From IMG/VR virus record IMGVR_UViG_3300044681_000056, positions 1 to 20,706 of that record: 20,706 bases of DNA. The stretch is one strand, 5' to 3'. Position numbers and translations under genes: made by a program. This DNA is from a virus. The notes under the pieces were generated by a model, which did not search any database, had not been told where the DNA came from, and was given only the letters and a program-made list of their open reading frames with translations. This document shows, piece after piece, positions 3,442 through 20,706 of the stretch; within the stretch, counting starts at the first letter, position 1; every line of letters begins with the position of its first letter.

Positions 3442-4335
3442 TTATATTGTGTAGTGAACACGGACTGGATGTTTGCCATTTTGCTTGGCTGATTCTTCTT
3501 GCAATCTTTGTTGGTACAAAGCAAGCAAGTATCTGGCAGTATTCGTACCAGAACCGAACTGACGTGTGCTGTCGTTCTGGTCTGCCTCTGGTGCGACAAA
3601 GTTCAAACGACCTGGGTCAATGAATGACACCATACGATATGCAGCACCATAAACAATCACGTCTCTTGATGATGCTGGTAAACCTGTAACTGTAGTAAAT
3701 ACATCAGAACCACTTGATAGTTCTGTTGGTTCTTTACCATAAACAACTTGAACAGTTCTTCCTGGAACTATTCCATCATAGATACTAATGGTATTACCAT
3801 TTGCATATTCAGATGTACTTGCCATTGGGTCATGACGCCACTTACGAACTGGAATCCATTCACCTGATGGACCAACAGAATCCCAACTTACTGCAAGAAC
3901 TGTATCGGCTGCGGTTGGTAAAGAGTATGTAGTTTGAGCAGGGTTAGCAGTAAAGGTAGTAGAAGCAACACCATAGATATTTGGAAAGACAGCCTTGATG
4001 GTGTCGTTAATTGCACGCTTAACAGATAACTTAGGAAAACTTGGGGCAAAAGTAACTTTGGCATTAGTGTCATGGCTTGCTGCAGTTGTTCCCCTATATC
4101 CTCTACCAAATGGTGAGATGACTGCAGAGCGGTCAGTACGGTCAACAGAATCTAAATGTATAAGTTCTTCATCAATCTCAACAACACCCTTACCTATGTT
4201 CTCGCCATTGGCTAGAGCAATAGATAGGTCTGTTGAATTAATACCAGCAGTAAGATATGTAGTTCTGTCTTGACGTAGGGTAAAGCCCTCAAGATTAATA
4301 AGAACTTCTTCTACTAGTTCGTTAAATGTAGTCAC
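3442..4335 (-). CDS. Head-tail adaptor-like / tail-stalk protein
   Basis: 297-aa protein. It starts with GTG, supported by AAGGA 7 nt upstream and by the GTGA overlap with the preceding TGA. The N-terminus (TFNELVEEVLINLEGF, 3-18) is helical. A beta module follows at about 25-97 and ends in RGYRGTTAASHDTNAKV (78-94), which resembles the N-terminal module of the fibre gene downstream. Next comes a helical segment (LSVKRAINDTIKAVFPNIYG, 103-122) recalling the 'iN.ai..i...' helices of podovirus adaptor proteins (T7 gp11, P22 gp4). The second half is beta-rich (EWIPVRKWRHDP, RTVQVVYGKEP) and closes with a helix (ARYLLALYQQRLQEESAKQN). Its place between head genes and fibre genes supports a connector that joins portal to tail. 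The alternative is a minor tail protein that anchors the fibre. Confidence 0.65.
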   Translation of the reverse strand: MTTFNELVEEVLINLEGFTLRQDRTTYLTAGINSTDLSIALANGENIGKGVVEIDEELIHLDSVDRTDRSAVISPFGRGYRGTTAASHDTNAKVTFAPSFPKLSVKRAINDTIKAVFPNIYGVASTTFTANPAQTTYSLPTAADTVLAVSWDSVGPSGEWIPVRKWRHDPMASTSEYANGNTISIYDGIVPGRTVQVVYGKEPTELSSGSDVFTTVTGLPASSRDVIVYGAAYRMVSFIDPGRLNFVAPEADQNDSTRQFGSGTNTARYLLALYQQRLQEESAKQNGKHPVRVHYTI

Positions 4336-4487
4336 TTAGATTTCCTTGCTACTGCAGCATTATCTACTAGGTTTGGATATTTTCTGCCAGCCTTCTTGGC
4401 TCTAGTCTTAGCAGCCTTAATCTGTGCTGGTGTAAGTTTTGTTGATTTCTTCTTTGGATTCTTTTTATCCCAAAATGCTTTAGCCAT
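4332..4487 (-). CDS. 51-aa Lys-rich mini-protein
   Basis: Small ORF beginning MAKAFWDKKNPKKKSTKLTP and followed by a basic helix (AQIKAAKTRAKKAGRKYPNL), then VDNAAVARKSK. No family is recognised. With AAGGTG about 8-9 nt upstream, a TAATG overlap with the 86-aa gene, and its TGA overlapping the GTG of the adaptor-like gene (GTGA), it fits exactly between two real genes with no spare base. The 'KKA.R.YPN.VDN..VAR' end resembles small phage proteins I have seen annotated only as hypothetical. A DNA-binding or charge-neutralising role is inference from composition. Confidence 0.65.
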   Translation of the reverse strand: MAKAFWDKKNPKKKSTKLTPAQIKAAKTRAKKAGRKYPNLVDNAAVARKSK

Positions 4488-4747
4488 TACCATTTCACCT
4501 TGTCTGCCCAATATGCTGCTGACATCTTACCTTTAGCAATGTTCTTAGCATGACGTGCTTTAAAAGACTTTTGTCTTGCGGTTGGCTTTCTGTCCCCAGT
4601 AACACCTTGTTGTCCAAAGCGGATTGTCTTAACCTTATCGCCAACCTTGGCTACAACTACGTGTGATTTAGTTGGGTGGCTAGGAGTCCGCTTTGGCTTA
4701 TTAAAACCAGAGACCCCAACCCTTTTGAGTCTTGGGTCTTTAGCCAT
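4487..4747 (-). CDS. 86-aa basic protein of a widespread phage family
   Basis: Strongly basic protein with a recognisable pattern: DPRLKRVGVSGFNKPKRTPS (4-23), then a small beta unit SHVVVAKVGDKVKTIRFGQQ (28-47) and a basic helix-rich end (SFKARHAKNIAKGKMSAAYW, about 61-80, followed by ADKVKW). The combination 'K.IRFG..G ... SFKARH..N..KGK.SA.YWA...KW' is shared by small proteins of many marine and freshwater phages. I associate it tentatively with a DUF (possibly DUF5872), not verified. The function is unknown; the composition suggests nucleic-acid contact, for instance with packaged DNA. TAATG overlaps on both sides couple it to its mini-gene neighbours. Confidence 0.78.
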   Translation of the reverse strand: MAKDPRLKRVGVSGFNKPKRTPSHPTKSHVVVAKVGDKVKTIRFGQQGVTGDRKPTARQKSFKARHAKNIAKGKMSAAYWADKVKW

Positions 4748-4908
4748 TACTTCTTAGGCTTCCGTGGTGTTGCTTTAACTGACTTTGATGCAGGAATCTT
4801 TCCATTCTGTAATGGTAAAGGATTACTTCCTGTTGGTTTCATTGGAACTTTCATTCCCATATTTTCGTGGTTATAGTTTGCGTAATTGCATCCACATGTT
4901 GAGCACAT
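4747..4908 (-). CDS. 53-aa mini-protein with N-terminal Cys cluster
   Basis: Small ORF beginning MCSTCGCNYANYNHENMGMK with four closely spaced metal-ligand candidates (C2, C5, C7, plus H14). The rest is Pro/Lys-rich and basic, ending ATPRKPKK. CxxCxC followed by a His could be a minimal zinc- or metal-binding knuckle, though one more ligand than usual may be missing. No family is assigned with certainty; similar MC-x-x-CGC starts occur in small phage proteins as I remember. AGGGAAG lies 5 nt upstream, the frame is tightly packed (1-nt gap before, TAATG overlap after), and codon use looks like the neighbours. These support it as a real gene. Confidence 0.6.
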   Translation of the reverse strand: MCSTCGCNYANYNHENMGMKVPMKPTGSNPLPLQNGKIPASKSVKATPRKPKK

Positions 4909-4909
4909 A

Positions 4910-5080
4910 TTAACTTCCCTTAACTCTCTTTAATCTTGGGTTTTTCTTTTTGGCTGCAGCAGATGCTTTACGACTACTTGCTGCCAAGATTGCACCAGCA
5001 CGCTCCATTGGGATACTCTGCTTCTTAGCAATCTTCTTTTGCACAGCCTTGAATCCAGGATGCTTTGCTGATTTAGCCAT
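4910..5080 (-). CDS. 56-aa basic mini-protein
   Basis: Small ORF beginning MAKSAKHPGFKAVQKKIAKK and ending NPRLKRVKGS. It is strongly basic, with an Ala/Ser/Lys-rich centre (AGAILAASSRKASAAAKKK) expected to be helical. The combination of AxxxA spacing and Lys faces suggests an amphipathic, nucleic-acid-binding helix, but no family is recognised. The ATG abuts the TAA of the 35-aa gene. Its last codons (AGGGAAG) serve as the ribosome-binding site of the next ORF, and a single nucleotide separates the stop from that ATG. The KNPRLKRV end resembles the DPRLKRV near the start of the 86-aa protein nearby. Confidence 0.65.
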   Translation of the reverse strand: MAKSAKHPGFKAVQKKIAKKQSIPMERAGAILAASSRKASAAAKKKNPRLKRVKGS

Positions 5081-6062: not shown

Positions 6063-7085
6063 TTAAGCAGCGTTGATGCTGGAAGAAGATTCAATACGGT
6101 ACAAGGCTTCTTCGCGGTAACGCTTCCAACCTAATACGCCGTACCATCCAATTGGACGTAGACGCATTAACTTGTCGGTTACGTTTCCGATTACTACGTG
6201 TGGCTCTTCAGCAACGGCTTCAGCCAATGCTTGTTGTCCTGCTAGTAGAGTACGGAATGCACGAGCCGATGAAGCACCATCGGTTGCGTTGTACAAGCGT
6301 GGGGACTCAATGAAGTAAGCACCTTCAAAAGTTCCGATTTCACCTGACCAGATTTCAGCATTGCTCTGGTATTCGTGTGGCAATCTCCAAGCACCTGAAC
6401 CAGTCTCTGCACGAAGGTCGTGTGAAACTTCTGGGTGAATTGCACACCAGTAGAGGCTACCCTTGCGAGGTACAGCCTTTCCTGCACGCAACTTGGCAAC
6501 AGCCTTGCGAATATCAGCAGCAGAGATAACATCTTCTGCAGCAATTTCGTTGGTTGCAGCAGGAGTGCTTGCTCCACCAGTTGCATAGATGACGTTGGTT
6601 CCACCACGTAGTTCGGTTTGAACTAGTTCGTCAATGGAATCTGCCATGTTGAATGCAACGATGTTTGCAATCGCTGGGTCTACATCTGCTAGTGAGAATA
6701 GTTGTAGTTTGCGAGTGGTTAGTACAGCATTACCGTATTCGTTAAGAGTTACGGTAACGGCACTTGGGCTACCAATCGCTACTGAATCAGGGTCAACTTG
6801 CTCGGATAGAGCAGTGGTTGCCTTTGCTAGGTCGTTGTAAATCTGAAAGACTACAGACGAACCTGGCATTGCTTGTCTTGCTGGACGCTTGTCAGCGACT
6901 GAACGCAACAATGGTTGTGAGCGGAGTGCAAATTCAACGAGACGGTCGTAAGCCTTTTGAACGAGACCTGCTCCATTAGATGGAGTGAAGGTACCTACGT
7001 TGTCGTTGCTTGAATATGCACCGCCACCAAGACCACCGTTGGTTGCAGCAGTGCCGCCAGAAAGAGCGGTATATGCATTAGCCAT
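6063..7085 (-). CDS. Major capsid protein, N4-gp56-like (HK97 fold)
   Basis: 340-aa protein that builds the icosahedral shell. The Gly/Ser-rich N-terminus (about 1-38) is followed by a segment typical of the N4-gp56 capsid family: AYDRLVEFALRSQPLLRSVA (45-64), KRPARQAMPGSSVVFQIYND (about 66-85), LNEYGNAVLTTRKLQLFS (114-131) and DELVQTELRGG (about 152-162). A later strand region has YWCAIHPEVSHDLR (212-225), the place of the peripheral domain, and the end contains LMRLRPIGWYGVLGWKRY (306-323). It follows the scaffold gene after 27 nt that include AAGGAAAC as a plausible ribosome-binding site. A stable hairpin lies just after its stop, as is common for highly expressed capsid genes. The alternative is another HK97-fold subfamily. 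The capsid function itself is well supported by context. Confidence 0.92.
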   Translation of the reverse strand: MANAYTALSGGTAATNGGLGGGAYSSNDNVGTFTPSNGAGLVQKAYDRLVEFALRSQPLLRSVADKRPARQAMPGSSVVFQIYNDLAKATTALSEQVDPDSVAIGSPSAVTVTLNEYGNAVLTTRKLQLFSLADVDPAIANIVAFNMADSIDELVQTELRGGTNVIYATGGASTPAATNEIAAEDVISAADIRKAVAKLRAGKAVPRKGSLYWCAIHPEVSHDLRAETGSGAWRLPHEYQSNAEIWSGEIGTFEGAYFIESPRLYNATDGASSARAFRTLLAGQQALAEAVAEEPHVVIGNVTDKLMRLRPIGWYGVLGWKRYREEALYRIESSSSINAA

Positions 7086-7112: not shown

Positions 7113-7571
7113 TTACGATTGTGCTCCTGAAATCATGTTAATAATTTCTTCAGCACTGGTTGCCTGGTCAATTCGGAGAAGAGTGTCATCAATACCAACT
7201 GGTACCTGTGCTGCTGCAGCAACCGTATCTATTTGACGTAAGGCAGCCAAGTCAGGAGCCTGCTCCTGCTTTTGTACCTGTAGCCCAAATACTTCTGCAT
7301 GCTCTTCCAGCCAAGCATCTACGGCTTCAGGCGAAGCCTCAATACTTTCAGGAATAAAAGCAGCAATCTTTGGATTAAGATTTCTTTCCGAGAGGACTGA
7401 CTTGATAGAGTTAGCCCTTTGTGCAGTCTTTAATGAACTTAATTCATCCATTAATTCTTTTAACTGCTTGTCTTTCTTTTTAGTGGCACGACGTAGTTGA
7501 GTAACTAAATCTCCGCCATCTTCATTGGACTCTAACTCTTCTTCATCAAAGTCCTGATAAACATTGCTCAT
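7113..7571 (-). CDS. Capsid scaffolding protein
   Basis: 152 aa from the preferred ATG at 7571 (the open frame extends to an ATG at 7616). It sits immediately upstream of the major capsid gene, the usual place for a scaffold. Its composition fits the class: an acidic N-terminus (DFDEEELESNEDGG, about 7-20), a charged coiled coil (about 21-50, RRATKKKDKQLKELMDELSS), then a helical segment with NPKIAAFIP (66-74) and VDAWLEEHAEVFG (about 84-96). The pattern 'NPK.A..IP ... WL.....VFG' recurs in actinophage scaffolds as I remember them. Scaffold binds the inner face of the capsid protein during procapsid assembly and leaves before or during packaging. The short C-terminal helix (EEIINMISGA) may be the coat-binding end. 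It is Cys-free and small for the class. Confidence 0.8.
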   Translation of the reverse strand: MSNVYQDFDEEELESNEDGGDLVTQLRRATKKKDKQLKELMDELSSLKTAQRANSIKSVLSERNLNPKIAAFIPESIEASPEAVDAWLEEHAEVFGLQVQKQEQAPDLAALRQIDTVAAAAQVPVGIDDTLLRIDQATSAEEIINMISGAQS

Positions 7572-7579
7572 CGCAATAT

Positions 7580-7584
7580 CTCCC
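7580..7584 (-). promoter_or_regulatory. Shine-Dalgarno fixing the scaffold start
   Basis: GGGAG on the minus strand lies 8 nt before the ATG at 7571. The upstream in-frame ATG at 7616 has no comparable site and would add 15 residues, so 7571 is preferred. Confidence 0.6.
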
Positions 7585-7610
7585 ATCGTTGTAGTTTGCG
7601 TAAGCCGCAC

Positions 7611-7630
7611 ATTCAATTGGGGATTTGAAT
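7611..7630. repeat. Perfect 6-bp inverted repeat ATTCAA-N8-TTGAAT
   Basis: ATTCAA (7611-7616) and TTGAAT (7625-7630) flank an 8-nt spacer, 40 nt upstream of the preferred scaffold start. The dyad could be a small RNA hairpin or a protein-binding site. It is short and AT-rich, so chance is plausible. Confidence 0.3.
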
Positions 7631-7693: not shown

Positions 7694-8812
7694 TTAGAAC
7701 TGTCCAGCAGTTCTTTGTTGTAGCGAAACTTGAGTTACACCAGCGCTTCCTGCAAATGATGCTTTCTCTTGTTCGGTTAGTCTTTTACGTCTTTCAGAAG
7801 CCAACCCTTGGAACTGTTCCGCTTCTAATTCTGTTTGTAAATCTGTAACATCAGTTTGATAAATAGCACCTAATGTTCCTAGTCGTGCTTGTTGTTCTGC
7901 AATCTTTGAATATCCAGCACGAGCAAGAGTTCTAGAAACTCCCATTGATTGAAGTTCCATAGCACGTCGAACATCAAGTCCTAAGCCAGCACGAGAAGCC
8001 TCAGAACTAATCTCTGCTGCAGAAAGTTTATTCTTTAATCTGTTAGCCATGTCTTCTGGGCTAGTTCCAGTTAATAGCACTTCAGCAAAATCTGACTCAT
8101 TATAATCTGGGAAGTAATCTGCTAATTGAGATTTTAATACTTCGTCAGCATTTCTAATTTTGTCATAGACATTAGTAATTCTGTCAGTTACTTCAGCAGC
8201 AGAAACATCTCCGCCAATTAATGTAGCGTATGTGTTTCTTGTTGCAAGATTACCTAAACCATATCTTGTTAAGATTTCTTGATAATCTTTTTCAGCCTGA
8301 ATATAATCTGCTGGTGTTAAGGCTGCTGCTTTTTTACCTGCTGCAATATCTGAAGCAAAGTTTTGATTATAAAGTTGAATACCTTTAAAACGTTCTTTAT
8401 ATTCAGGAGTATCTTGAATAGCAAGTCTTACAGCAGTAGCCGTATAACCTTTATCTTTAACAAGATTAATAATTCTATCTACAATGCCTTCACCTATGTC
8501 GTAAGCATTTGCTAATTCTCTTGCTATATCGTAAGCGCTTTGACGCTGTGCTGCAATTTGTGCATCACGCTGCATTTGAGCCAAGCGTCTTTGCTCTTCA
8601 AGTAATCTTGCTAATCTATCTGCTTCGCTTTCACCTGTTGTAGTGGTAGGTGTAGTTGTGGGTGTAGTAGTACTGTCTTCATCTTTGCTTTTTTTTGTTT
8701 TTTTAGTAGAAGGTTTGGATGGACCACCTAAATAACCAGTAGAAACTGGAGGTCTAGAAACAGGTGATGGTATTCCTTTTAACTCATTTAAAAAATTTGG
8801 TCCGACAGTCAT
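7694..8812 (-). CDS. Helical virion-region protein with Lys/Thr/Pro linker
   Basis: 372-aa protein of unknown function. The N-terminal ~30 residues are Pro-rich (GIPSPVSRPPVSTGYLGGPS). Residues about 33-46 are Lys-rich, and 47-60 are a Thr/Pro low-complexity run (TTTPTTTPTTTTG). A predicted coiled coil follows at about 62-92 (ADRLARLLEEQRRLAQMQRD) and long helices to the end, including a C-terminal coiled-coil-like stretch (about 325-358, LQTELEAEQFQGLASERRKR). There is no membrane segment. It is last of the four long genes before the scaffold gene. The architecture of flexible linker plus coiled coils fits a structural or assembly partner rather than an enzyme. Translation is coupled to the 430-aa gene by TAATG. 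The stop is followed by the largest non-coding gap of the window. Confidence 0.7.
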   Translation of the reverse strand: MTVGPNFLNELKGIPSPVSRPPVSTGYLGGPSKPSTKKTKKSKDEDSTTTPTTTPTTTTGESEADRLARLLEEQRRLAQMQRDAQIAAQRQSAYDIARELANAYDIGEGIVDRIINLVKDKGYTATAVRLAIQDTPEYKERFKGIQLYNQNFASDIAAGKKAAALTPADYIQAEKDYQEILTRYGLGNLATRNTYATLIGGDVSAAEVTDRITNVYDKIRNADEVLKSQLADYFPDYNESDFAEVLLTGTSPEDMANRLKNKLSAAEISSEASRAGLGLDVRRAMELQSMGVSRTLARAGYSKIAEQQARLGTLGAIYQTDVTDLQTELEAEQFQGLASERRKRLTEQEKASFAGSAGVTQVSLQQRTAGQF

Positions 8813-10104
8813 TAGAATTTAAATCCAAAATCCTCTAGTACACCCTCAAGGCTTCCTAGAATAGTATCCCAAGCGTTTGACGTATATTGCCAAGCGTCAG
8901 TTTTTCTAACCATCTTTGAGAAATCAAATAGGTTAAGTGTTTCTCCTGATTGCAATACTTGTTGCATTAAATTATCTTGCAAACTAATTGAATCTATTGG
9001 AACTTCAAGCAAGGTTGCTGCGGCAGTTCTATATGGACTCAAGATATCAGAAAGGTTTGCACCTTCTTGAAAACGATTTTTATACTGTGGGTAAAGTTGA
9101 GAAGCCTGATTTCTAAAATTACCAACAATGTCATTTAATGCTGCTTTACCTGCTTGGCTATCAGGTCCACCTAAATCCATTACTTGCTTTACATAATTAA
9201 CAAACTCAGGACTTCCAGTACTTATATCAAAACCATTGTTTCTAATACCTTTAAGTATTTGCTCGCTGGCTTGACCTGCTTGTCCTTTAATGTAGTCTTT
9301 ACCAAAGCCAATGCTACCAATAAGAGCATCAGTTAATTCTTCATCACTCCAACCTAGCAACATAGTATTTTGCGCTAAGTTATCTAAAGTTGCTTCATCA
9401 AATTCAGCACCATAGTATGTGGCTAATGAACGAATACGTTCTTTTTCGTTTGCTACTTCTTCTTGGTAAGTAGGTTCATCCAATGCAAGGGTAGATGAAA
9501 CTCCAGCCCTAACTCTGTCGGATACACCTTTAGCCCATCTACTGTTTTCAATAGCAAGTTCTAATTCTGCTTCAGCGTCTGGACCTTGTCTGCCACTAGT
9601 CTTAAAATCTCGAAGTATCTTTTGTATTTCAGGGTCAACCATTGCTGCACGAGAAACCATTTTTTTAGTTACTTCAAATAAACGCCCTGCTTCTTGTTCA
9701 GTTGTTCCAGCGTATTGCTTAAAGGTTCCCCAAGGGCTTGCACCAATTGTACTTCTAAGTTGCTCCCATCCTCCAGTGTTAGCCTTTAACTGATTAACAA
9801 CATCTGTATAATAGTTTAATTTTAAAGTATCTACCGTAGCACGAACGCCTGTTGCAAAATCTGAATAACCTTGAACTCCAACTTCATTTACTGCAGCGCT
9901 TCCAGATAAACGCTTTGTAGTATTAAGAGGATTAAATCTTTCAATAGCAACTGGAACATCAGAACCAGCCTGTTGTTTAGTGCGAGAGTCTTCCGCTTCC
10001 ATCCATTTAAGAAGCATATCAACATTTGCTTTAGAGGTTGGAGCGCCAATACCTTTAAGAACTTCTATTGCAAATTTTTTCTTTTCAGATTCTTTATAAA
10101 CCAT
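8812..10104 (-). CDS. Predicted virion protein with N-terminal lysozyme-like module
   Basis: 430-aa protein. Residues about 20-128 contain a recognisable module: an acidic helix (LLKWMEAED, 31-39), then NPLNTT (58-63), VGVQGYSDFATGVRATVDTL (75-94) and SPWGT (123-127). The pattern 'W..AE ... NP.NTT ... GVQ.Y.....G..ATV.TL ... SPWGT' recurs in actinobacterial and actinophage proteins that I believe have a lysozyme/transglycosylase-like fold. Glu36 or the adjacent acidic residues would be the catalytic candidate. This is from memory, not from a search. The remaining 300 residues are helical and Gln/Ala-rich with no recognised domain. In context it could be a virion-borne muralytic protein that opens the cell wall during DNA entry. 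The ATG directly abuts the 402-aa stop, and its TAA overlaps the next ATG. Confidence 0.65.
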   Translation of the reverse strand: MVYKESEKKKFAIEVLKGIGAPTSKANVDMLLKWMEAEDSRTKQQAGSDVPVAIERFNPLNTTKRLSGSAAVNEVGVQGYSDFATGVRATVDTLKLNYYTDVVNQLKANTGGWEQLRSTIGASPWGTFKQYAGTTEQEAGRLFEVTKKMVSRAAMVDPEIQKILRDFKTSGRQGPDAEAELELAIENSRWAKGVSDRVRAGVSSTLALDEPTYQEEVANEKERIRSLATYYGAEFDEATLDNLAQNTMLLGWSDEELTDALIGSIGFGKDYIKGQAGQASEQILKGIRNNGFDISTGSPEFVNYVKQVMDLGGPDSQAGKAALNDIVGNFRNQASQLYPQYKNRFQEGANLSDILSPYRTAAATLLEVPIDSISLQDNLMQQVLQSGETLNLFDFSKMVRKTDAWQYTSNAWDTILGSLEGVLEDFGFKF

Positions 10105-11313
10105 TTATAGACTTCCTGGTCTGACAACGCTTTGAACTTCTTGTCTTGCTTTATTCGCAATTCTTTCAAACACATTTGATATAGCATTCAAACCGCCTTG
10201 ACCTGCACCAAATTCTTCAGCCTCTGGTCTGCTTAGCGTGTACTCAGAAGCAAAAGATTCTAATTGGTCAGCAGTAAAACCTTCGTAAGTAGTTTCCATG
10301 CCAGTAACCATATCAACAGCACTTCTTCTAGGATTGGCAGTTGCTTCTGCTTCTAGTGCAAATTTAAAAGCCTGTATTTCTTCAGCACTTGGCATTCTTC
10401 CTACATACTGAGAATAAGTAGATTTAAGAACTGTTTCTGCTTCTCTATCTGATGGAACATAAGCAGACAATGCATCAAAGTCTTGCTGAACAGTTTGAAT
10501 ATAATCGTCTATACCAAAAGGATTTAAGCCTTGTTTAACATTATTATAATTCTGCTGGCTTAGTTCACTAAGATATCTATCAAGAGCAATACCAAAAAAT
10601 TCGTCAGGACTTTTTCCTTGACGTAAACTAGATTGTATTTCAAAATCTTTAAAACCTGCTAAAGTATAAAAACCTTTTTCTGCTAACAATTGCTTAAACT
10701 CAGCAAGTTTATCAGTAGCAGTTAAATTCTTAATAAAACTTTCTTGAACAACAGTAGTGTCGTAAACCATAGCACCAGTGGCTGAGGGTCCGCCACCAAC
10801 ACCAAATTCCCTAGGAATAATAACTGCGAATCTAGGAGATGGTGTTCCACCTTCAGCAGTACCACCATAGACACCAGCACCTGGAGCATCTGCAGTTATA
10901 AAATTCACTTGTCTAGTTACTGGGTCAATCTGTACAAACTCGTCTATATTTTTTTCAGTGACAAGTCTGCCTTGACGGTAAGCATATTCTTGGTCAGGTA
11001 ATTCTTCACCTTCACGTATGCGTTGGGCTTCTTCTGGAGTAATTTCTTCTTTTGAAGGTTTTTCTTGTGATTGATTTTCTTGAGCATAATCATTTGCAGA
11101 ACTAAATTGGACATAAGCGCCAATGATTTTATTGTCTTCTTTAATATAACTAAGACCTGGCATATTTCGAATGTCTTCTTCAGTAAAAGAAAAAGCCTTT
11201 AATGCAGGATATGGATTTGCCCCAAGCAACCAACGTGGTAGTTTTGCTTTGTAAACACCTGCATCAGCATCATATATTAACTCTAATCTAGTTGGTGTCT
11301 TTTCGTCAGCCAT
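10105..11313 (-). CDS. Predicted virion protein, possible peptidoglycan-binding-like segment
   Basis: 402-aa protein, function not recognised. The N-terminal ~70 residues look globular (PRWLLGANPYP, about 26-36). An acidic linker follows at about 77-107 (SQEKPSKEEITPEEAQRIRE). Residues about 200-256 contain EFKQLLAEKGFYTLAGF and then EFFGIALDRYLSELSQQN. This loosely recalls the 'L..L...G.Y....G......T..A' pattern of peptidoglycan-binding helical bundles, but it is weak. Residues about 299-328 carry YVGRMPSAEEIQAF and end in ANP, a 'GR.P...E...F' helix pair that I associate with phage structural proteins. The start overlaps the stop of the 1795-aa gene (TAATG), and the stop abuts the next ATG (TAAATG). 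It is probably made together with the 1795-, 430- and 372-aa proteins as parts of one virion substructure. Confidence 0.7.
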   Translation of the reverse strand: MADEKTPTRLELIYDADAGVYKAKLPRWLLGANPYPALKAFSFTEEDIRNMPGLSYIKEDNKIIGAYVQFSSANDYAQENQSQEKPSKEEITPEEAQRIREGEELPDQEYAYRQGRLVTEKNIDEFVQIDPVTRQVNFITADAPGAGVYGGTAEGGTPSPRFAVIIPREFGVGGGPSATGAMVYDTTVVQESFIKNLTATDKLAEFKQLLAEKGFYTLAGFKDFEIQSSLRQGKSPDEFFGIALDRYLSELSQQNYNNVKQGLNPFGIDDYIQTVQQDFDALSAYVPSDREAETVLKSTYSQYVGRMPSAEEIQAFKFALEAEATANPRRSAVDMVTGMETTYEGFTADQLESFASEYTLSRPEAEEFGAGQGGLNAISNVFERIANKARQEVQSVVRPGSL

Positions 11314-14300
11314 TAACTTATACGCTCATCTCTACTTAAACTTTTTAGGATTGGAACAAAGATTGCTCTGTTTGCTTGTCGAACTGTGTAGTTTATATTA
11401 GCAATATTATCTAAGTCTGCGATTGCTTCATCACGAATGATTCTCTTAAATGAAGCATCTTGACCTCTCATAAGTTCTAATTTAGAAGTGGTATTGCTTG
11501 CTAATTGAAATGCTATATTAAGACTTTCTCTGGTCTTTGCGTCCATCTCTACATCTTTGTCAAGTAACATATTGCCTAGCATGCTTGCCATGTTTCTTTC
11601 TTTTTCAACACCAAAACCACCTGACTCTAAGTAAGTCTTAAGTAATGGGTTTTGAACAAGAAGCATTTGTCTACGCATTTGCATATTGTCAGCAATAGTT
11701 TGACGCTCATATGGATTAGCCGTAGAGTTCATTCTATCCATTGCTTCGTCTTGAATATCAAACCAAGTTTGACGGTCAATAGAAATCTGAACTTCTTTTA
11801 GATAAGTCTCAAAGTCTTTATTATCAATAAGACCTGACGCTTCAAACCAACCATATGCAGATGCACTAAACTCACCTACGTTAGGTGCTGCTAACCATGC
11901 TGCATCACCATACTTGTCAATTAAATCTGCGTTTTTAATGTACCAGTCTTTAACTTCATCAGTTTTTCTGAAAGCAATCTCTTGTGTTTTCTCAGCACGA
12001 GATACGGTATAAACAAGTTTATTAGGGTTCTTACCTATGTAGATAGCAAGCGCTTCTTCATATGGGTCATCTAATCTTGGGTTTGAGTTGTTTACAACAC
12101 CTTCATAAATATCAAAGAACTCTTGACGTACGCTAGTAATACCTACTTCTTTTAAGAAGTTAGGTAGGTCTTTAGATTCTTTTAATGTTGGCGACCAAGG
12201 AATTGGTAGCAACCCAAGAAGATTACGCATAAAGACTACATTATGACCTGATATACGTAGGTTCTTTACGTATTCATATTGTTCTTCTGGAGTAGCATCT
12301 ACTGGCAATCCCTTACCATGTGCTGCATTGTAGGCAATTACTTGATGAAGAGCAGATACTTCCTGCCTATCTTTTTCATTACTTGTTGTCATGCGCCATA
12401 GTCTGTCTAAAGATGCAGGCACCATAGCACGACGTAAAGTTAAGTTATCTCCAATATCACCAAGAAGAACATTATCAATTCTATCTGCAGCAATACGACC
12501 ATTAGGTCCCAATCCACCTAATACAGACTTGGCTAATAAAATACTCATACTGGCTAACGGACCAGAAAGAGTAGGAGTCGTAGCATCTGGACCGAATGAT
12601 GGGTTTACTTGAGATAGTTTAAGAGTAAAGTCTCCAACTAAAGTTTGATTATATCCAGCAGTACCACCAGTTAAAACTCTTAATGGTTTATCAACAACTT
12701 GGAATATCATGTCATCCATTGGCATAACCATATAGGATTCGCCTTTAGCATCTTCATGAATAAATCCAGATGCAGCCAATCCTTGCGCACTTAAACGCAT
12801 ACGCATAATGGTTTTAATAGAATGTTCTTTTAATCTGTAAAATCTGCGAATAAAGTCTTCAGTAGCACGGTAGAAACGTGAACCATTACGTAGATTCCAA
12901 GCCAATGAAGTACGTACTTCAGGATTATCTGCATATTTCATGATGTTATTTAAAGCATCTTGAATAGCAAACTCAGATAGCCTACGTTCTGCTAAATCAT
13001 CCGCATGTCTTTGAAAAGCAATTGCATCTTCTTTACTAAGTTTACCTAACTTTGTGCTTTCTAAACGTGCAGCAGTAGTTTTAGCAAGCAATTCTTCTTT
13101 TAACTGCCTTGAGTATCCACCTTCTTCAAAGTTACGCATAGTAGTTAAGAAGAAAGCCATAGTTGCTGGCGTACGAAAGTAAGAAGTTACTTGTTGGTCC
13201 ATCAATTCAAAGGCTCTATTGCCATATTCAGCAATTGCTTCTGTAATACTAGCAGGACCTGGAGCAAAAGGTACGGCTAATTCACCTTTAATATCGTACT
13301 TACCAACTAATTCGTCATATTCTTCCATTGGAAGTCTACTCCAGTTAAACTTACCTTTAGAAGATGAAACTTTTTTAAACAACGATTCGTTAAATACTTC
13401 AAATCTAGAAGAACCGTGAAATGATTTACGTAAATCTAGTAAATGCGTTTGCAACCAGTCTGTAAATATTTCATAATCAGACTTGGTGCCTTTTAATGCA
13501 GGATATGAATCTAAAGATTCTAAGAGTTTTCTAACTGGAGTTCCTGGACCCATTAATTTTTCTGGGTTAGTAAGCAATCCTGTTGTAATATCGTCTGCCG
13601 CATCAATGAAATCTTTGCCTTCTGGAAGTTTTATATCAAAAGCCTGAACAATTTCATTACCAGCATTAATAAAATCTTCTTGAGTTCTTAATCCATTATG
13701 CTTTACAAATAGACTACTTGGGTCTAACTTAGTTCCTTTGCCTACAAAAAGACTATAATCGTTTGAAAATCTTTTTGAAACGATATCAAACTGCCCAGCA
13801 ATTCTTTGATTTCTGCTTGCACTTTCAGAAAGGATTTGTAATTTAGGGGTTTTAACTAAACCATTTGCTTTTAAGAAAGCATCATAGCCTTGCTCGCTAA
13901 CCACATCTTGAGTTACATCAATAGCCTTACCGCCAAGAGCAGCATTTCTAGCCTGAGATGATGTTACTAAATCTAATCCCATAGGGTTGTAGCGCATTAG
14001 AGCATATAAGAATTTCTTATCCATTTTATCAAGCACCATTGGGCTAGGAAGATTGCTTGTAAAACCTGGTATCGCTCTTAATTCGTTTATTGCTTCATTT
14101 ATTATGGTTTCAACAACGAAATCTTTTTGGGCTACAAAGTCTTTAGGATGCTCTATTGCTGCTAAATCTTCAATAGCACGTCTAGTTTCAGGAGATATCT
14201 TATCTTGTAGTTTTAAAAATCTTTCTTGAGAGAACGATAAACCCTCTGCACTTCCTCTGGCTATAGCCAAAGTTTTAACAGCCTTGCGTGCACGCCCTAC

Positions 14301-16700
14301 AAAACTACCAATTATTTCATAAGGTGCATATAAAGAAAATAAAAAGAGTTCGTCTACAACAGCCCTAATACCTAGTTTAGGAACCAGCGTTGCAATTGTC
14401 CAAGTATTAGTTACGGTGCTAACAGCATGGCTATTAGTAATAGCACCCATTCTTCTTAAAGCATTCCAGACTTTAGCGCCGTCTTCTTTTTTAGATAAAG
14501 CATTCTCGCCAAGAAGATTTGCTATTTCAACAAATTTAGGCTGGCTAACGTTACTAGTAAATTGAAATGGTTGAGAAGGTGTTTTAGAAATTGCTGTATC
14601 AAAGTCAGCACCAATACTTACTGATTGTTTATATGAATTGCTTAACTTCATTCCTTTAGAAATATCTAAACTTTGACCTGAAATAAAGCCAAGTGAACCA
14701 AAGGTGTCGTCAAGTATACCTTGAATAATGTCAGTGCCGCCTGGTATAGCACCTAAACCACTACTGTGATAAACATCTGCATGTAATGCACGAAGCATTA
14801 CTCGCCTATCATTCATTTTTAAGTCAGCAAATCTTTGAGTAAGAATTTTTGCTTGCTTATCAGGAAGTACAAGTTTTGCTAAATCTCTAAAAGCAGGTAA
14901 ACTTTTATATACGTTATCATCATCAGTATATATTGTGCGACTTAATGGATGGCGTGAAAAATACCTACCAACTCTTTCTTTAAAGGTTGCCATCTTAGTA
15001 GCAGCCAAGTTAAATAAAGGGTCTGTATTTCTTAAATCAGCAATGTTCTTGGCTACTTTATCAACTTCTTGACCTGATTCTAGATATCTTCCTGCTATGT
15101 AAGCAGCATCTAGACTTTTATCAGATTGCTTTAAAACTTCAAATAAGTCATCGCCTTCTGAAACTGGTTGGCGAGTGTTAAATCTTTCCGCTATTTTAAG
15201 TCTAAAGTTTTGACGGAACCGTAAACTCTTGTTTGCAGTAAGCACATTGTTAGATGTGTAAAAAATCATGCTATTGCTTTTAGCGTTAAAAAGACTTAAA
15301 GCATGTTCACTATCTGTAAAGTATTTACCAGCAGTAAAAGCGTCTTCAATTCCACCTTCTGCAAATTCTCTAATAATAGCGTCGTTGTTATACATTGGAT
15401 AAAATCTTCCAATGTCATCCATAACATTTGCTTTAACTACATCATCGCCTTCACGAAAGGCTTTAAGTAATTTACCTAGACCAGGAATAGCAGAATTTTC
15501 AATACCATCCCATACAGCCTTAACTTCTTTTTCTCTAAATACTAAAGGAACTGCGATATCAGAAGGAATGCCCTTCTTCATTAAGTTACCGTAAATTTTA
15601 CCTTTATTTAATAAAGGCAAACCTAAAGTTTTATTACTCTTAACGGTTAGGTCAGGCGCTAAAAGACGAGTTGGCGATGGTGCAAGTTCTGATTGTCTTG
15701 CAAGAACTTGCTCAACTGCTTCGCGTCTTGCTTGGTATCTAAGAATTATTGGGTCTGTATTAGGAAACTCTTTTAGTTTAACTTTAAGAATATCATCAGT
15801 TAATTTAAGCGCTTCTTGGTCTAAAGCACCTGCTGCTTTAACTAAACCTTTAGCAGCACCCCATGTACCTAGCGTAGCCCAAGTTAATGGGTCAGCAAAA
15901 ATTTGATAGCCTGCGTCTAATACACCTGACACTCTGTCAAATGCTTTTTCTTGTGCAGTAGGTGCATCTGGTGAAAGACGGAATATAAATCTTCCAACGT
16001 CTCTACCAAAAGAAATTTGACCACGACGATAGTCTTCAAGAATTATATTAAACTTATCAGGGTTTTCTTGCATGAAGTTAAGAGCACGCTCTAACTCAGG
16101 AGTTACTCCGCCAACTTCTTCAATAACTTGCCCTGGTGTTTTACCTACAGTTAAACCTTTAGCAAGTGCTGCAACGCCGTCACCATAAGTTGCATCAAGT
16201 TGAGAGGTGTATTTCTTGTCAAATATCTTTTTGCCGTCCCAGTCTTTAGACCAGATAAGCAACATTGAAGGAGTAAATTCTCCTTGACCTAATGCTCTAG
16301 TGATGTTATAAGGAGCAGAAAGAGTTTGACTATAAGCAGGTAATGCTGTTTCAAAAGCAAATCTAAAAGGGGAAGAAACTAATGTTTTAATACCTTTACC
16401 TAAAGCGCCAAGAACAGTCCAGTCTTTAGGTTTATTTAAATAATCTGGATTGTCAAAGGTTGCTTTAAGTGCTGTCTGAACATCTTCATCCAAAGCATTA
16501 AATTCTTGAACTGCTTTATCATTATCCATGCTAAGCAATTCACGATGCTTATCGTATAGTTTACCCCAAGAATTTATCTGTTGTAAATTAGATTCTGGAA
16601 TACCAGTACGATAAGAGGCAACCGCTAATTCAGGATTGTATTTTGAATCAGTATAAGCAGACCAACCTTGCGGTGGTGTCCAGCCTTGTAAGCGAGCCAC
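11313..16700 (-). CDS. Giant 1795-aa predicted internal/ejected virion protein
   Basis: Very large single ORF that takes up about a quarter of the window. I recognise no enzymatic domain. It starts at GTG (16700) with only a weak upstream GGA, and it ends in TAATG overlap with the 402-aa gene. Visible features are long mixed-charge helical stretches and several hydrophobic or amphipathic patches: about residues 94-126 (TVLGALGKGIKTLVSSPFRF), 262-295 (GYQIFADPLTWATLGTWGAA), 766-800 (containing AVVDELFLFSLYAPYEIIGS) and near 1390 (LASMSILLAKSVLGGLG). There is no signal peptide and no repeat ladder like that of a tape measure. Size, the amphipathic patches and its place among virion genes are reminiscent of the large ejected proteins of podoviruses (T7 gp16, or the N4 virion RNA polymerase as a size analogue). 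That makes a DNA-ejection or trans-envelope role the best guess. A tape-measure-like role is the alternative. Confidence 0.7.
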   Translation of the reverse strand: MARLQGWTPPQGWSAYTDSKYNPELAVASYRTGIPESNLQQINSWGKLYDKHRELLSMDNDKAVQEFNALDEDVQTALKATFDNPDYLNKPKDWTVLGALGKGIKTLVSSPFRFAFETALPAYSQTLSAPYNITRALGQGEFTPSMLLIWSKDWDGKKIFDKKYTSQLDATYGDGVAALAKGLTVGKTPGQVIEEVGGVTPELERALNFMQENPDKFNIILEDYRRGQISFGRDVGRFIFRLSPDAPTAQEKAFDRVSGVLDAGYQIFADPLTWATLGTWGAAKGLVKAAGALDQEALKLTDDILKVKLKEFPNTDPIILRYQARREAVEQVLARQSELAPSPTRLLAPDLTVKSNKTLGLPLLNKGKIYGNLMKKGIPSDIAVPLVFREKEVKAVWDGIENSAIPGLGKLLKAFREGDDVVKANVMDDIGRFYPMYNNDAIIREFAEGGIEDAFTAGKYFTDSEHALSLFNAKSNSMIFYTSNNVLTANKSLRFRQNFRLKIAERFNTRQPVSEGDDLFEVLKQSDKSLDAAYIAGRYLESGQEVDKVAKNIADLRNTDPLFNLAATKMATFKERVGRYFSRHPLSRTIYTDDDNVYKSLPAFRDLAKLVLPDKQAKILTQRFADLKMNDRRVMLRALHADVYHSSGLGAIPGGTDIIQGILDDTFGSLGFISGQSLDISKGMKLSNSYKQSVSIGADFDTAISKTPSQPFQFTSNVSQPKFVEIANLLGENALSKKEDGAKVWNALRRMGAITNSHAVSTVTNTWTIATLVPKLGIRAVVDELFLFSLYAPYEIIGSFVGRARKAVKTLAIARGSAEGLSFSQERFLKLQDKISPETRRAIEDLAAIEHPKDFVAQKDFVVETIINEAINELRAIPGFTSNLPSPMVLDKMDKKFLYALMRYNPMGLDLVTSSQARNAALGGKAIDVTQDVVSEQGYDAFLKANGLVKTPKLQILSESASRNQRIAGQFDIVSKRFSNDYSLFVGKGTKLDPSSLFVKHNGLRTQEDFINAGNEIVQAFDIKLPEGKDFIDAADDITTGLLTNPEKLMGPGTPVRKLLESLDSYPALKGTKSDYEIFTDWLQTHLLDLRKSFHGSSRFEVFNESLFKKVSSSKGKFNWSRLPMEEYDELVGKYDIKGELAVPFAPGPASITEAIAEYGNRAFELMDQQVTSYFRTPATMAFFLTTMRNFEEGGYSRQLKEELLAKTTAARLESTKLGKLSKEDAIAFQRHADDLAERRLSEFAIQDALNNIMKYADNPEVRTSLAWNLRNGSRFYRATEDFIRRFYRLKEHSIKTIMRMRLSAQGLAASGFIHEDAKGESYMVMPMDDMIFQVVDKPLRVLTGGTAGYNQTLVGDFTLKLSQVNPSFGPDATTPTLSGPLASMSILLAKSVLGGLGPNGRIAADRIDNVLLGDIGDNLTLRRAMVPASLDRLWRMTTSNEKDRQEVSALHQVIAYNAAHGKGLPVDATPEEQYEYVKNLRISGHNVVFMRNLLGLLPIPWSPTLKESKDLPNFLKEVGITSVRQEFFDIYEGVVNNSNPRLDDPYEEALAIYIGKNPNKLVYTVSRAEKTQEIAFRKTDEVKDWYIKNADLIDKYGDAAWLAAPNVGEFSASAYGWFEASGLIDNKDFETYLKEVQISIDRQTWFDIQDEAMDRMNSTANPYERQTIADNMQMRRQMLLVQNPLLKTYLESGGFGVEKERNMASMLGNMLLDKDVEMDAKTRESLNIAFQLASNTTSKLELMRGQDASFKRIIRDEAIADLDNIANINYTVRQANRAIFVPILKSLSRDERIS

Positions 16701-16717
16701 TAATTAAAATCCGTTCT

Positions 16718-17128
16718 TTAAAACATCTCATTGAAAATTGCCGACAGTTTTCCTGTATTGTCCCCAGGTATTAATTTAGATAATTCAGATTGTAAAGTTG
16801 GTTGAGGTGGAGCAGCAGGTAAATTTAAATTTGTAAAATCTTGACCTGGACCAAAACTCATTCCTGCTGTTAATGGTTCGTTAGGTCTATTGGTCTTGTC
16901 CATAAGCCCAGCATTACCAGACATTGCTGACATAATGTTACTGCGACTAACAGCAGGTTGAACTGCTGGCGGTGCTTGATACATACTGGCACCAGCCTGT
17001 TGTTCCATTAGTTCTTGACCTTCACCATAAGTTCCACCACTCATGTATCTTGTTGGTTGTTTGGATACATTCATGTCAGTTCTTTTTGATTGTGAACCAG
17101 GACCTGATACTTGTTCTCTAACTGCCAT
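16718..17128 (-). CDS. Low-complexity hypothetical virion-region protein
   Basis: 136-aa protein of unknown function. It is rich in Gly, Pro, Gln, Met and Ser and likely largely disordered. The N-terminus carries a conserved-looking basic stretch (SQSKRTDMNVSKQPTRYMSG, residues 13-32) followed by GTYGEGQELMEQQAGA. The C-terminal ~30 residues (ELSKLIPGDNTGKLSAIFNE) could form helices. There is no membrane segment. The ATG overlaps the preceding stop (TAATG), and 17 nt separate its stop from the GTG of the 1795-aa gene. Placed between the portal and the giant protein, it could be a minor virion component or a chaperone-like partner of that protein. That is inference. Confidence 0.7.
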   Translation of the reverse strand: MAVREQVSGPGSQSKRTDMNVSKQPTRYMSGGTYGEGQELMEQQAGASMYQAPPAVQPAVSRSNIMSAMSGNAGLMDKTNRPNEPLTAGMSFGPGQDFTNLNLPAAPPQPTLQSELSKLIPGDNTGKLSAIFNEMF

Positions 17129-17388
17129 TAGTCCTCATCTTCTAAAAAATTTGTTTCTGAAGTTACTAGAATATCTGTTGCGTGTGCAAGCATTCCGTTT
17201 AATTTCCACGGTGGAGTCCTGCCATCTGACAAAGCATCTAGATGATATTGATTATCTGCGTCTATAAATTCTGCAATTAAAATTAAACTAGTAGTTAAAG
17301 CACCTTGTGGAAATCTTGCTTTAGCATAACCATCAATTGCTTCTTTGAATAATTTGACGTACTCTGGTTGTGCATCAATCTTATCCAT
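17128..17388 (-). CDS. Small acidic protein of unknown function between portal and virion genes
   Basis: 86-aa protein that I do not recognise. It is predicted to be mostly helical, with an amphipathic N-terminus (YVKLFKEAIDGYAKARFP, residues 10-27), a more hydrophobic middle helix (LTTSLILIAEFIDADNQYH) and an acidic C-terminus ending FLEDED. There is no signal peptide or membrane segment. It starts 1 nt after the portal stop, and its own TAA overlaps the ATG of the next gene (TAATG), so it belongs to the packaging/head operon. A role in head completion or as a portal- or terminase-associated factor is possible but is inference from position only. Confidence 0.75.
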   Translation of the reverse strand: MDKIDAQPEYVKLFKEAIDGYAKARFPQGALTTSLILIAEFIDADNQYHLDALSDGRTPPWKLNGMLAHATDILVTSETNFLEDED

Positions 17389-17389
17389 T

Positions 17390-19111
17390 TTAACCTGCCA
17401 GTTGCGCCATAATTGCTGCTAATTCAGGAGGGGCTCCAGCAGGGCTACCAGAGGGAGCGCCAGGTGGGGACGGTTGCGCTGCAACCCCTTGTGGAAGGGC
17501 AGCCTCTGCTGGAGTAGGTTCTTCAATCGGCTCAGGAGTAAATGCTTCTTTAACAGCATCCTCAATAGCCATACCATCACGACGTTTCTCAATAATGTCT
17601 GCAAATTTAGATAACAATTGAGATGCGTCTTGTCCAGTTGCAATCATTTCTGGCAATGCACCTGCTGCAGCATTTACTGCACGATTCAAATTATCACGCA
17701 TCTTTTCAATGTCAATGCGTTCTTTTTCTTTACTTACGTTAAGCGACCAAGGTAGTTCGCTCATTACAAATTCCTTGGATACTAGTTCTCCGCCTAGTGC
17801 TTGTAGTGAGAAAATCAAAGCACGGCTTGGGTCTAGTCCAGCCATTAAGCCATAGCGAACTTCTACCGTGTAGTCACCCTTAATATCTTTGGCTGGGTTG
17901 TACTTAAGTTCGTATGGTGCACCGTCATTATATCCGCGTGCGGTCTTTTCAAATGGGAATATCTTCTCATCTGCACGCAAGCACAACGAAATTACATCTT
18001 CAAAAGTTTGAGATAGTACTTGTTGTCCTGCTTTAATCTGAGAATCAAAAGCACCTAATAACGCTTGGACGCCTTGTCCAGTAATGATACTGGCATCAAT
18101 GTTGCCAGTTCTTCCTTCTGGATAGCGTGCGCCCAAACGCATTTCCTGCTGCAACACTGCTTGTTCAGTAAATGCGACTGGCGGTATATCAAGTCCGACT
18201 CTGCGAATCTGCTGAGGGTTTTGACTTCTCAACACAGCGTCTGGACCAAAAGCCAACTCTTGAACATCATTTGGCAATGCGAGCGGAGCCTGAACGCTCT
18301 TCTCTGCTGCTTCTAATGCTAGTAATGCAAAACGAGAACGAGCAAGTTGTACCCACACAACGTCATCAAATTGACCGCGTGGTTCATCATCAATACTTGG
18401 ACGTCTTGCTACGCGTACAAGTATCTCGCCTAATGGGTTTTCTGTTCTTTGTAGTACTAAATCTTTACGAGATGGTAGGAATAAAACTATTTGGTCGTCA
18501 TCTTCGTAGCGAATCATTTCCAACATGGAGTACATGTCGGTCATATCTCGACCTTCAGGACCAATAATTTGCGCTTCTAGGTCTGGAAACTCTGCAACTA
18601 ATTCAGCAATAGTCTTGTAATAACGACGGCTGTAAGAAGTTATGCGACCAAAACGGTCAAACTCTGGATAAGAACTTAAAGGATTATCTACACGTATGCG
18701 AGGCTGACTGTTGTCAACATCCAATTCTACTACTATCGGCAAAAAGCCATATGTTAGGAACCAGTCAGCCCCAGTATACATTTGGGTTTGTAAACGAGAT
18801 GATTGAATATAATAATTAACAATCATGCTACGTTTTTCTGCCTGCGATTTAGCGCGGTCAGAAGTTACTTTTGCTGTGGTGCAGTTAAAACTTGGTAGTG
18901 GTGCAAGCACTTCTGCTAAGTCTCTTGCTGCTACGTCAATAAAGTTGGCAACCATTGGTGCTGGCATACCTTCAGGAAAGAAATCTGGGAATACAGATTG
19001 AATCTCTCCACGACGTACCGATAGTACATTCGCCATACGAGCATCTCTATCAGAGTAGCGACGCTTAAGAGCCTCTACCTTGTCTGAGATTTGTTGCACT
19101 GATAGTGCCAT
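17390..19111 (-). CDS. Portal protein
   Basis: 573-aa protein directly after terL. Position, length and sequence character fit a portal, the dodecameric ring at the unique capsid vertex through which DNA enters and leaves and on which terminase and tail dock. The N-terminal ~100 residues are helical and charged. The middle (about 120-260) alternates beta strands and contains the aromatic stretch YTGADWFLTYGFLPIVVELD. A helical segment rich in Gln and Ala (about 265-385, with AVLQQEMRLGARYPEG) could form the crown/stem helices. The last ~60 residues are a Pro/Ala/Gly-rich tail, probably disordered. The start is set by AGGAG 5 nt upstream. Only 1 nt separates its stop from the next gene. I cannot assign a portal family from motifs alone, so the call rests on context plus general resemblance. 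Confidence 0.88.
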   Translation of the reverse strand: MALSVQQISDKVEALKRRYSDRDARMANVLSVRRGEIQSVFPDFFPEGMPAPMVANFIDVAARDLAEVLAPLPSFNCTTAKVTSDRAKSQAEKRSMIVNYYIQSSRLQTQMYTGADWFLTYGFLPIVVELDVDNSQPRIRVDNPLSSYPEFDRFGRITSYSRRYYKTIAELVAEFPDLEAQIIGPEGRDMTDMYSMLEMIRYEDDDQIVLFLPSRKDLVLQRTENPLGEILVRVARRPSIDDEPRGQFDDVVWVQLARSRFALLALEAAEKSVQAPLALPNDVQELAFGPDAVLRSQNPQQIRRVGLDIPPVAFTEQAVLQQEMRLGARYPEGRTGNIDASIITGQGVQALLGAFDSQIKAGQQVLSQTFEDVISLCLRADEKIFPFEKTARGYNDGAPYELKYNPAKDIKGDYTVEVRYGLMAGLDPSRALIFSLQALGGELVSKEFVMSELPWSLNVSKEKERIDIEKMRDNLNRAVNAAAGALPEMIATGQDASQLLSKFADIIEKRRDGMAIEDAVKEAFTPEPIEEPTPAEAALPQGVAAQPSPPGAPSGSPAGAPPELAAIMAQLAG

Positions 19112-19116
19112 TCAAA

Positions 19117-19121
19117 CTCCT
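19117..19121 (-). promoter_or_regulatory. Shine-Dalgarno of the portal gene
   Basis: On the minus strand AGGAG lies 5 nt before the portal ATG (19111) and overlaps the TAG stop of the terminase gene, reading TAGGAG. It fixes the portal start and couples its translation to terL. Confidence 0.7.
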
Positions 19122-20706
19122 ATAAGTATGCTTCAGCATATTGTGCTGCAGCAAGTTCATCTAAGTTAACAACGCCACGCTGGTTTATACCAGCACGAGT
19201 TGCATAGCGGTTAAAAGAATGTGATTGAGCAAATCCAGACATCTGAATTAGTTCTTTAACTCTAATCTCACAAAACCAAAGAGCCATAACGCAGTCGGTT
19301 GGTTGATATTTTTTAGCGTTAGGTGCCCAAGTTATTAATTGATTTATTAGAGCCTTTACGTGCTCATTGCCTTCAGAGGAAGGTAGTTCAATTAGATTAT
19401 CATCTTGGTGTTTGCCATCACGGTCTGTGCCAAATAGCGAAGCCATAGAGGCAACACCAAAGTCTACGTCCCATTTATTTTTACCAGTAAAGTGTGAGCG
19501 GAACTGGATACCTCTAGATGCCATCCATTGGTTTAGTTCTTCATCTAGTTGGTACGCCTTTTGATGGGCATTAATTTCAATTCTTAATTCTTGTGGGTGG
19601 TACTTGTTAACCCAATCTTCCATCAAAGCGCGAATTTTTTGAGGGTTAGGGTCTTCCATGTTGTACACATCAAGCACATAACGTTTTTGAGTTTGGCGGT
19701 CATACGCCAACATTACGGCTGCGGTCTTACCACTCATGGCTGGGTCAAGACCCATGATTAAATACCAGTCACCATTCTTAGGATGACCTGGCGCTTTTGT
19801 ATTAATAGGACCTACACGGCGCATGCCATTAACGGAACCTTGCACACAGACAGGGCGGAAGATGGAATCTTCTTGAATGTCCTGCTGTTGGTAAACCATA
19901 GCCCAAGTACTAGGGGTTACTTCACCACGCCTACGGTACAGGGCTGGACCGTCCCACTTAGTATACAAGCCGTTTTCGTCAGGTTCTTTTTTGCTAGTGC
20001 CTTTGACGTCAGTTTTCTCCCAAAGCGTTTTCCAGTCTTTGGGTTCGTCAGCAAATTCTAAAACTGCTGGCATAGCAAAATAGGTAAATGGACTTATGCC
20101 ATTTGACCAGTGTTTAGGGTTGCGGATTTCTTTATAGAGGTCGGTGGCAGCAAAGCGCGTACCTACCACTAGAAGCACTCCCTCATCATCAAGACGAGTG
20201 ATTACTTCTTTTTGAATCCACTCAAGTTGTTTCTCGTACTCATGGGCGTTGGCGCCTGTTACGCAGTCGTCAAGAATTATTAAATTGGCGCGCGCACCAT
20301 ACACCTGACCACCAATACCAAGGGCTTGGACGGTAGGGTCCTTTTCTGTGGAAGTACGAGAAAGTGTAATTGCATTCTGTTTCCAAGAGTCGGCTTCCTC
20401 TTTCCATCCGCCAGGAGGAGCATAGGTAGCCTGAAGTTTAGCCCACATAGGGTGGGTCAATCTTTGCTTGATTGAGTATACAAACTCTTGGGCTTTAGTC
20501 AGAGTTTTGGAAATAACAATAATCCGAGTATTGTCAGGGTCCATGCAAATCTTGTAGGTAGAGTAATTTACCGTGATGGTTGTACTCTTGGCGTGCTCTG
20601 GGGGCACATTGATTAAAAGTCTAGTTGGGTCTGAGGGTTCATACACCATAGATGGGTGAAGCCAACTTGGCTCGCGCCCCTCTAAAACATCTATCCAATT
20701 TTGCTG
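19120..20706 (-). CDS. terL: Terminase large subunit (5' end outside window)
   Basis: This is the ATPase/nuclease motor subunit that pumps phage DNA into the procapsid through the portal and cuts the concatemer. The frame stays open from the first ATG (20649) through 19 further codons to the window edge, so the gene starts outside and 20649 is probably an internal Met. Numbered from that Met, I see a degenerate Walker A (residues 14-23, NVPPEHAKST), a Walker B strand LIILDD (123-128), a GTR coupling motif (VVGTRF, 161-166) and a C-terminal RNase H-like nuclease. The nuclease has a first Asp in LIMGLDPAMSGKT (D302), a second acidic strand around LRIEIN (355-360) and a late Asp near DCVMALW (452-458). 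This order is typical of the family. The TAG stop sits inside the portal gene's Shine-Dalgarno sequence, so the two are tightly linked. The small terminase subunit would be expected upstream, outside the window. Confidence 0.95.
   Translation of the reverse strand, partial: QQNWIDVLEGREPSWLHPSMVYEPSDPTRLLINVPPEHAKSTTITVNYSTYKICMDPDNTRIIVISKTLTKAQEFVYSIKQRLTHPMWAKLQATYAPPGGWKEEADSWKQNAITLSRTSTEKDPTVQALGIGGQVYGARANLIILDDCVTGANAHEYEKQLEWIQKEVITRLDDEGVLLVVGTRFAATDLYKEIRNPKHWSNGISPFTYFAMPAVLEFADEPKDWKTLWEKTDVKGTSKKEPDENGLYTKWDGPALYRRRGEVTPSTWAMVYQQQDIQEDSIFRPVCVQGSVNGMRRVGPINTKAPGHPKNGDWYLIMGLDPAMSGKTAAVMLAYDRQTQKRYVLDVYNMEDPNPQKIRALMEDWVNKYHPQELRIEINAHQKAYQLDEELNQWMASRGIQFRSHFTGKNKWDVDFGVASMASLFGTDRDGKHQDDNLIELPSSEGNEHVKALINQLITWAPNAKKYQPTDCVMALWFCEIRVKELIQMSGFAQSHSFNRYATRAGINQRGVVNLDELAAAQYAEAYL

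Follow-up and report, generated by a model that had tools for sequence, protein, structure and literature searches.

A giant gene between portal and scaffold in freshwater viruses related to Streptomyces podoviruses is exchanged as a cassette and may encode an ejection protein

What does a gene of 1,795 codons do between the portal gene and the scaffold and capsid genes of a virus, when its product resembles no named protein? We analyzed a 20.7-kb viral record (hereafter the window), read on its minus strand, in which this giant gene is a single unbroken frame that shares one base at its stop with the start of the following gene (Table 1). A preliminary description, made from the sequence, had given its coordinates and size exactly and had called its product a virion-region protein, which is right by gene position. 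Across 200 mononucleotide shuffles of the gene, the longest open frame was 140 codons, and comparison with a relative encoding a 98% identical protein (L006) yielded 77 silent and 41 replacement codon differences, with 37/15/81 differences at codon positions 1/2/3. Because the shuffles never exceeded 140 codons and the differences from L006 are mostly silent, the giant gene is a selected one: it is under purifying selection, and a chance open frame is excluded. Three loci (L045, L047 and L122) have the giant in two open frames (e.g. 463 + 1133 aa), reflecting a sequencing error or a real split.

Table 1. Features of the window discussed in the text (positions on the window; residues are those of the giant protein).
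Feature	Positions	Strand	Remarks
Terminase large subunit (TerL)	19120..20706	-	5' end cut by window
Portal protein	17390..19111	-	phrog_104; 55.5% to Planktophila phages, 44-45% to Streptomyces podoviruses
p86, small conserved portal-side protein	17128..17388	-	conserved gene order
p136, Pro/Gly-rich	16718..17128	-	phrog_8200
Giant gene	11313..16700	-	GTG start at 16700, stop at 11313; 1795 aa + stop; proposed internal virion / ejection protein
Conserved hydrophobic segment of giant, ~residues 760-804 (TNTWTIATLVPKLGIRAVVDE...)	14288..14423	-	
Most conserved part of giant, ~residues 1258-1414 (RNGSRFYRATEDF, NPSFGPDA..PTLSGP)	12458..12929	-	residues 1258-1383 low-confidence in monomer model
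p402, companion	10105..11313	-	conserved gene order
p430, companion	8812..10104	-	C-terminal domain phrog_6654
p372, companion	7694..8812	-	phrog_8424; closes exchanged cassette in E7/F5
Scaffold protein	7113..7616	-	phrog_7813, weak phrog_648; position
Major capsid protein (MCP), N4-gp56 family	6063..7085	-	TIGR04387 E 6e-35 over cutoff; phrog_1357

To place the gene among its relatives, IMG/VR loci were gathered using a portal search together with a profile of the giants, and giant homologues of 1,580-1,940 aa were found in the same slot on more than 100 contigs. The order TerL-portal-p86-p136-giant-p402-p430-p372-scaffold-MCP, followed by small genes, an adaptor and a fibre, is conserved among these loci, with genes missing or ORFs fused in some of them (on many contigs a single ORF matches both p402 and p430). 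The closest cultured relative, 1,772 aa long, is encoded by Planktophila phage LanE43AprE7 (E7; OX376640) and has an E-value of 1e-49, or 1e-167 using the profile. It is homologous to the giant, the matched part being about 28% identical, and lies in the same gene order in a phage whose host is the freshwater actinobacterium Ca. Planktophila (Ca. Nanopelagicales) (PMC10202952); unlike the window, E7 has a single companion ORF that matches both p402 and p430. The records OX376640 and OX376641 are filed as “Caudovirales sp. ct2KA10” with no annotation or host and are therefore easily missed.

A profile built without Streptomyces and Planktophila phages also matched the 1,650-aa gp9 of Streptomyces podoviruses of the Beephvirinae (E-value ~1e-25), and HHalign aligned the giant family with gp9 at 99.5% probability over 1,164 columns. 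These gp9 proteins (phrog_10618; Olicious, Immanuel3, Fabian and Abafar; 1635-1650 aa) occupy the same slot with the same flanking genes, their identity to the giant being below the reach of BLAST and the homology detected by profile. The Streptomyces phages differ in that p86 is not recognised, TerL and portal are separated by an endolysin gene, and a tRNA block precedes the scaffold gene. With profile homology over most of its length and a shared slot, the giant is a member of the Beephvirinae/Planktophila family. The preliminary description had taken its position and size to suggest a distinct ejection apparatus lineage; the slot is the standard layout of these phages and not a peculiarity of the window. 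The quoted gene orders of T7 and N4, where large ejected proteins are encoded elsewhere, are right. The whiB gene, an actinophage marker (PMC10202952), was found in 13 of 19 related records, including all 11 of those of 32 kb or more; the window does not reach the whiB region. As the window is only a fragment, we infer its actinobacterial host from kinship.

Several of the neighbouring genes have features of their own. In p136 the N-terminal part is conserved, and there is a motif like PTxxPxxPLTxGxDxGxGxGSExLxLP. The start of p402 (11008-11313, the first ~100 aa) has no DNA match between the window and L005, L006 or L007, a hypervariable start within an otherwise conserved stretch in phages whose giants are 98% identical. 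Between capsid and adaptor, at 4332-5080, there are four short genes (59, 86, 53 and 56 aa), several of them very Lys/Arg-rich. In another locus (L110, ~20844-21557) a post-capsid open frame outside the neighbour families looks glycosyltransferase-like by eye.

We searched the giant protein and the family profiles against Pfam, NCBIfam and PADLOC, where no family was matched, and against PDB sequences, with no significant match; tandem repeats were looked for in the giant and none were found. The earlier view of a protein with neither a recognisable domain nor a repeat ladder thus stands. The sole PHROG match of the window's giant was marginal (phrog_4547, E-value 0.0035), and its relatives fall in a single PHROG, phrog_10618, annotated as of unknown function. 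DsbA rows with an E-value of 0.02 covered just 70 columns and were discarded as noise, and a weak match to a “structural protein, Cellulophaga phi14:2” (E-value 0.06) was discarded after profile follow-up showed the giant to be unrelated. In prokaryote genomes, 46 pattern matches were retrieved, none of which was a relative. A strong profile match to a tape-measure protein or a virion RNA polymerase (vRNAP), named at the outset as what would overturn an ejection role, was not found. The hydrophobic patches noted earlier around residues 94-126, 262-295, 766-800 and 1390 are present and are family-wide hydropathy maxima (those at 258-276, 766-784 and 1366-1384 also rank with the best conserved windows), but they are not diagnostic. 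Their use as a sign of membrane insertion was dropped, as the same values are reached by ordinary head and tail proteins of T7 and P22; since maximal values are the same in other virion proteins, hydropathy is no evidence for an ejection role.

AlphaFold models were built for residues 1-900 and 860-1795 of the giant using 50-row alignments, yielding medium-confidence half-models (mean pLDDT of 72 and 70, pTM of 0.46 and 0.40 respectively) that are both overwhelmingly helical with few strands. The conserved stretches at ~745-783 and 1258-1383 are among the lowest-confidence parts of the models; they could be regions whose folding requires an oligomer or that change shape, although low confidence has other causes too. 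Both halves were compared with the PDB using Foldseek and VIA-align 2, with nothing above noise (a PhiM1 ejectosome chain, with a Z-score of 3.6 over 49 residues, was at noise level), and with BFVD, where five significant structural matches were all uncharacterised or unnamed viral proteins. Structure thus gave no name for the giant.

Comparison of close relatives was more informative about how the gene travels. From TerL to inside p136 (position 3691, reverse complement), the window and contig L105 share 98.3% identity; they have almost no DNA similarity over the giant, p402, p430, p372 and most of the scaffold gene, and return to 96% identity at position 13600 (reverse complement), just before the capsid gene. 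E7 (L002) and F5 (L161; OX376641), which were isolated on one host strain (PMC10202952), have flanks that are 96-98% identical and differ at E7 8373-16921, a stretch that begins within p136 and closes with p372. An 8-kb island of hypothetical proteins without homologues in the other phage has been published for this pair (PMC10202952) and is explained by our analysis, as it is the p136-giant-companion cassette. The F5 slot encodes a 1,720-aa giant that matches the family profile with an E-value of 1e-6 at collinear positions (HHalign 27%, versus 0.3% for the reversed control) and is, on these matches, probably a remote homologue of the giant family. This second, very divergent giant type was found in F5 and 25 IMG/VR loci.

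We then considered all pairs of gathered loci with portal identity of at least 90%, which share ancestry and are not independent: the giant was below 50% identity in 34 of 228 pairs, p430 was below 50% in 22 of 22 giant-swapped pairs versus 4 of 140 others, and p136 in 16 of 34 giant-swapped pairs versus 1 of 194 others. By sequence comparison, then, the giant and its neighbours, from the C-terminal half of p136 to p372, are exchanged between related viruses as one cassette. This co-exchange suggests that the giant and its companions work together, and the breakpoint inside p136 in two independent pairs suggests that p136 is matched to the portal side by its N-terminal part and to the cassette by its C-terminal part. 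The giant gene family was already present in databases without a function; what this analysis adds is a link between freshwater contigs and Streptomyces podoviruses, the finding that the cassette is exchanged at shared breakpoints, and a proposal for the role.

This role draws on the companions. Olicious gp11 has an NlpC/P60 domain (E-value 3.6e-30) and gp12 an SLT transglycosylase domain (E-value 6.6e-5, above the curated cutoff), and both share a C-terminal phrog_6654 domain with p430 of the window. In the window's own p402, p430 and p372, domain searches recognised no hydrolase, and a lysozyme domain suspected by eye in the N-terminal part of p430 was not supported by the searches. From synteny, co-exchange and the hydrolase companions, we infer that these proteins work like an ejection set. 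It is fairly probable that the giant is the large member of such an internal-virion (ejection) protein set, in a podovirus lineage related to Actinobacteria phages, and, as far as can be read from sequence, its most likely task is to help drive viral DNA across the host wall and membrane. During assembly, the giant, p402, p430 and p372 would be mounted on the portal's inner side, p136 being a putative linker of the set. Upon adsorption, the set would leave through the short tail, the companions (NlpC/P60 and SLT in the Streptomyces relatives) would open the peptidoglycan, and the helical giant may refold or oligomerise, lining a conduit for the DNA through wall and membrane.

An ejection set is favoured by the NlpC/P60 and SLT domains of the Streptomyces companions, which represent the chemistry of the large ejection protein T7 gp16, itself carrying a transglycosylase domain (which is reported to swap between ejection proteins in related phages) (PMC8954989); by the very short tail that electron microscopy shows for the relative Abafar (PMC11536984), whose group thus does not need its 1,650-aa protein as a long-tail ruler; by the mostly helical models of both halves, as in T7 core proteins; and by the location of the tail fibre and adaptor genes elsewhere, with no RNA polymerase domain found. 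It is disfavoured by the lack of similarity to known ejection proteins, by window companions in which no hydrolase is recognisable, by the medium confidence of the models, and by the literature, which knows ejection proteins chiefly in podoviruses infecting Gram-negatives and describes phi29-like podoviruses of Gram-positive hosts as lacking them (PMC8954989). Profile comparison of the giant with T7 gp14/15/16, P22 gp16/20, N4 gp50 and the phi14:2 cargo proteins detected no similarity, and no sequence or fold match to crAss-like ejection proteins was found; judged by sequence or profile similarity to gp14/gp15/gp16, the giant falls outside the T7-type ejection family. Both the T7 and the giant sets include a very large helical protein in a late structural operon, and a peptidoglycan hydrolase belongs to the T7 set as well as to that of the Streptomyces relatives. 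However, T7 encodes its ejection proteins after the tail genes and not before scaffold and capsid, its hydrolase is on gp16 itself and not on separate small companion proteins as in the Streptomyces relatives, and its hosts are Gram-negative.

More tentatively, at a little under even chances, this may be a separate ejection lineage for monoderm (Gram-positive) hosts, with a giant helical protein that has no homology to known ejection proteins, hydrolases on detachable companions, a two-part p136 linker to the portal, and a plug-in cassette traded independently of the infected strain. The distinct ejection apparatus lineage of the preliminary description is the best supported reading, through the fixed slot, the co-exchange, the Streptomyces hydrolases, the helical model and the lack of similarity to known ejection, tape-measure or RNA-polymerase proteins, but not through its position, which is the known group's standard, nor through the hydrophobic patches.

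Among other readings, the giant could be an external tail component (a large adhesin, tail-knob or sheath like N4 gp65) exchanged for receptor use. Planktophila phages have two hypervariable islands, of which its slot is one (PMC10202952), and receptor-binding genes are often located in such islands. We nevertheless consider this unlikely: E7 and F5, with different giants, infect the same strain (PMC10202952), the helical, strand-poor models are unlike usual fibres, and the genes for fibre and adaptor come after the capsid gene, the fibre being in the second island (PMC10202952). Slightly less likely again is a structural or core protein of the head interior, acting in assembly (portal/scaffold nucleation) and not ejected; the gene lies between portal and scaffold and the window/L105 swap extends through the scaffold gene, yet in the all-pairs comparison scaffold and capsid mostly stay in place when the giant is exchanged, and size and wall-hydrolase companions fit entry better.

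A vRNAP or other ejected enzyme is highly improbable. The window and N4 both have an N4-gp56 family capsid protein and a giant late protein, but N4 gp50 (3500 aa, with polymerase activity) is encoded beyond the capsid gene and has no similarity to the giant (HHalign probability 0.1%). No RNA_pol match was found in 19 related records (a weak argument, as control genomes were also silent), the R-x3-K-x7-YG motif (motif B) is not conserved at the conserved YG (residues 1597-1598), the models have few strands, and E7 and F5 have a sigma factor instead (PMC10202952). The least credible reading is a tape measure from a long-tailed phage, suggested by a long helical protein in a structural operon and by stray tape-measure rows with insignificant E-values, since the giant has no repeats, its gene lies before scaffold and capsid and outside a tail operon, only one family member matched a tape-measure profile (E-value 0.0047), and electron microscopy shows the relative Abafar to be a podovirus (PMC11536984).

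If the giant is indeed the large member of an ejection set, short-tailed phages infecting Actinobacteria, among them phages of the freshwater Nanopelagicales, which are very abundant, would have their own DNA-delivery machine, and cultured phages of this lineage exist in which the proposed role can be tested. A large unannotated protein family would gain a role, as would the variable 8-kb island published for the Planktophila phages that were the first to be cultured.
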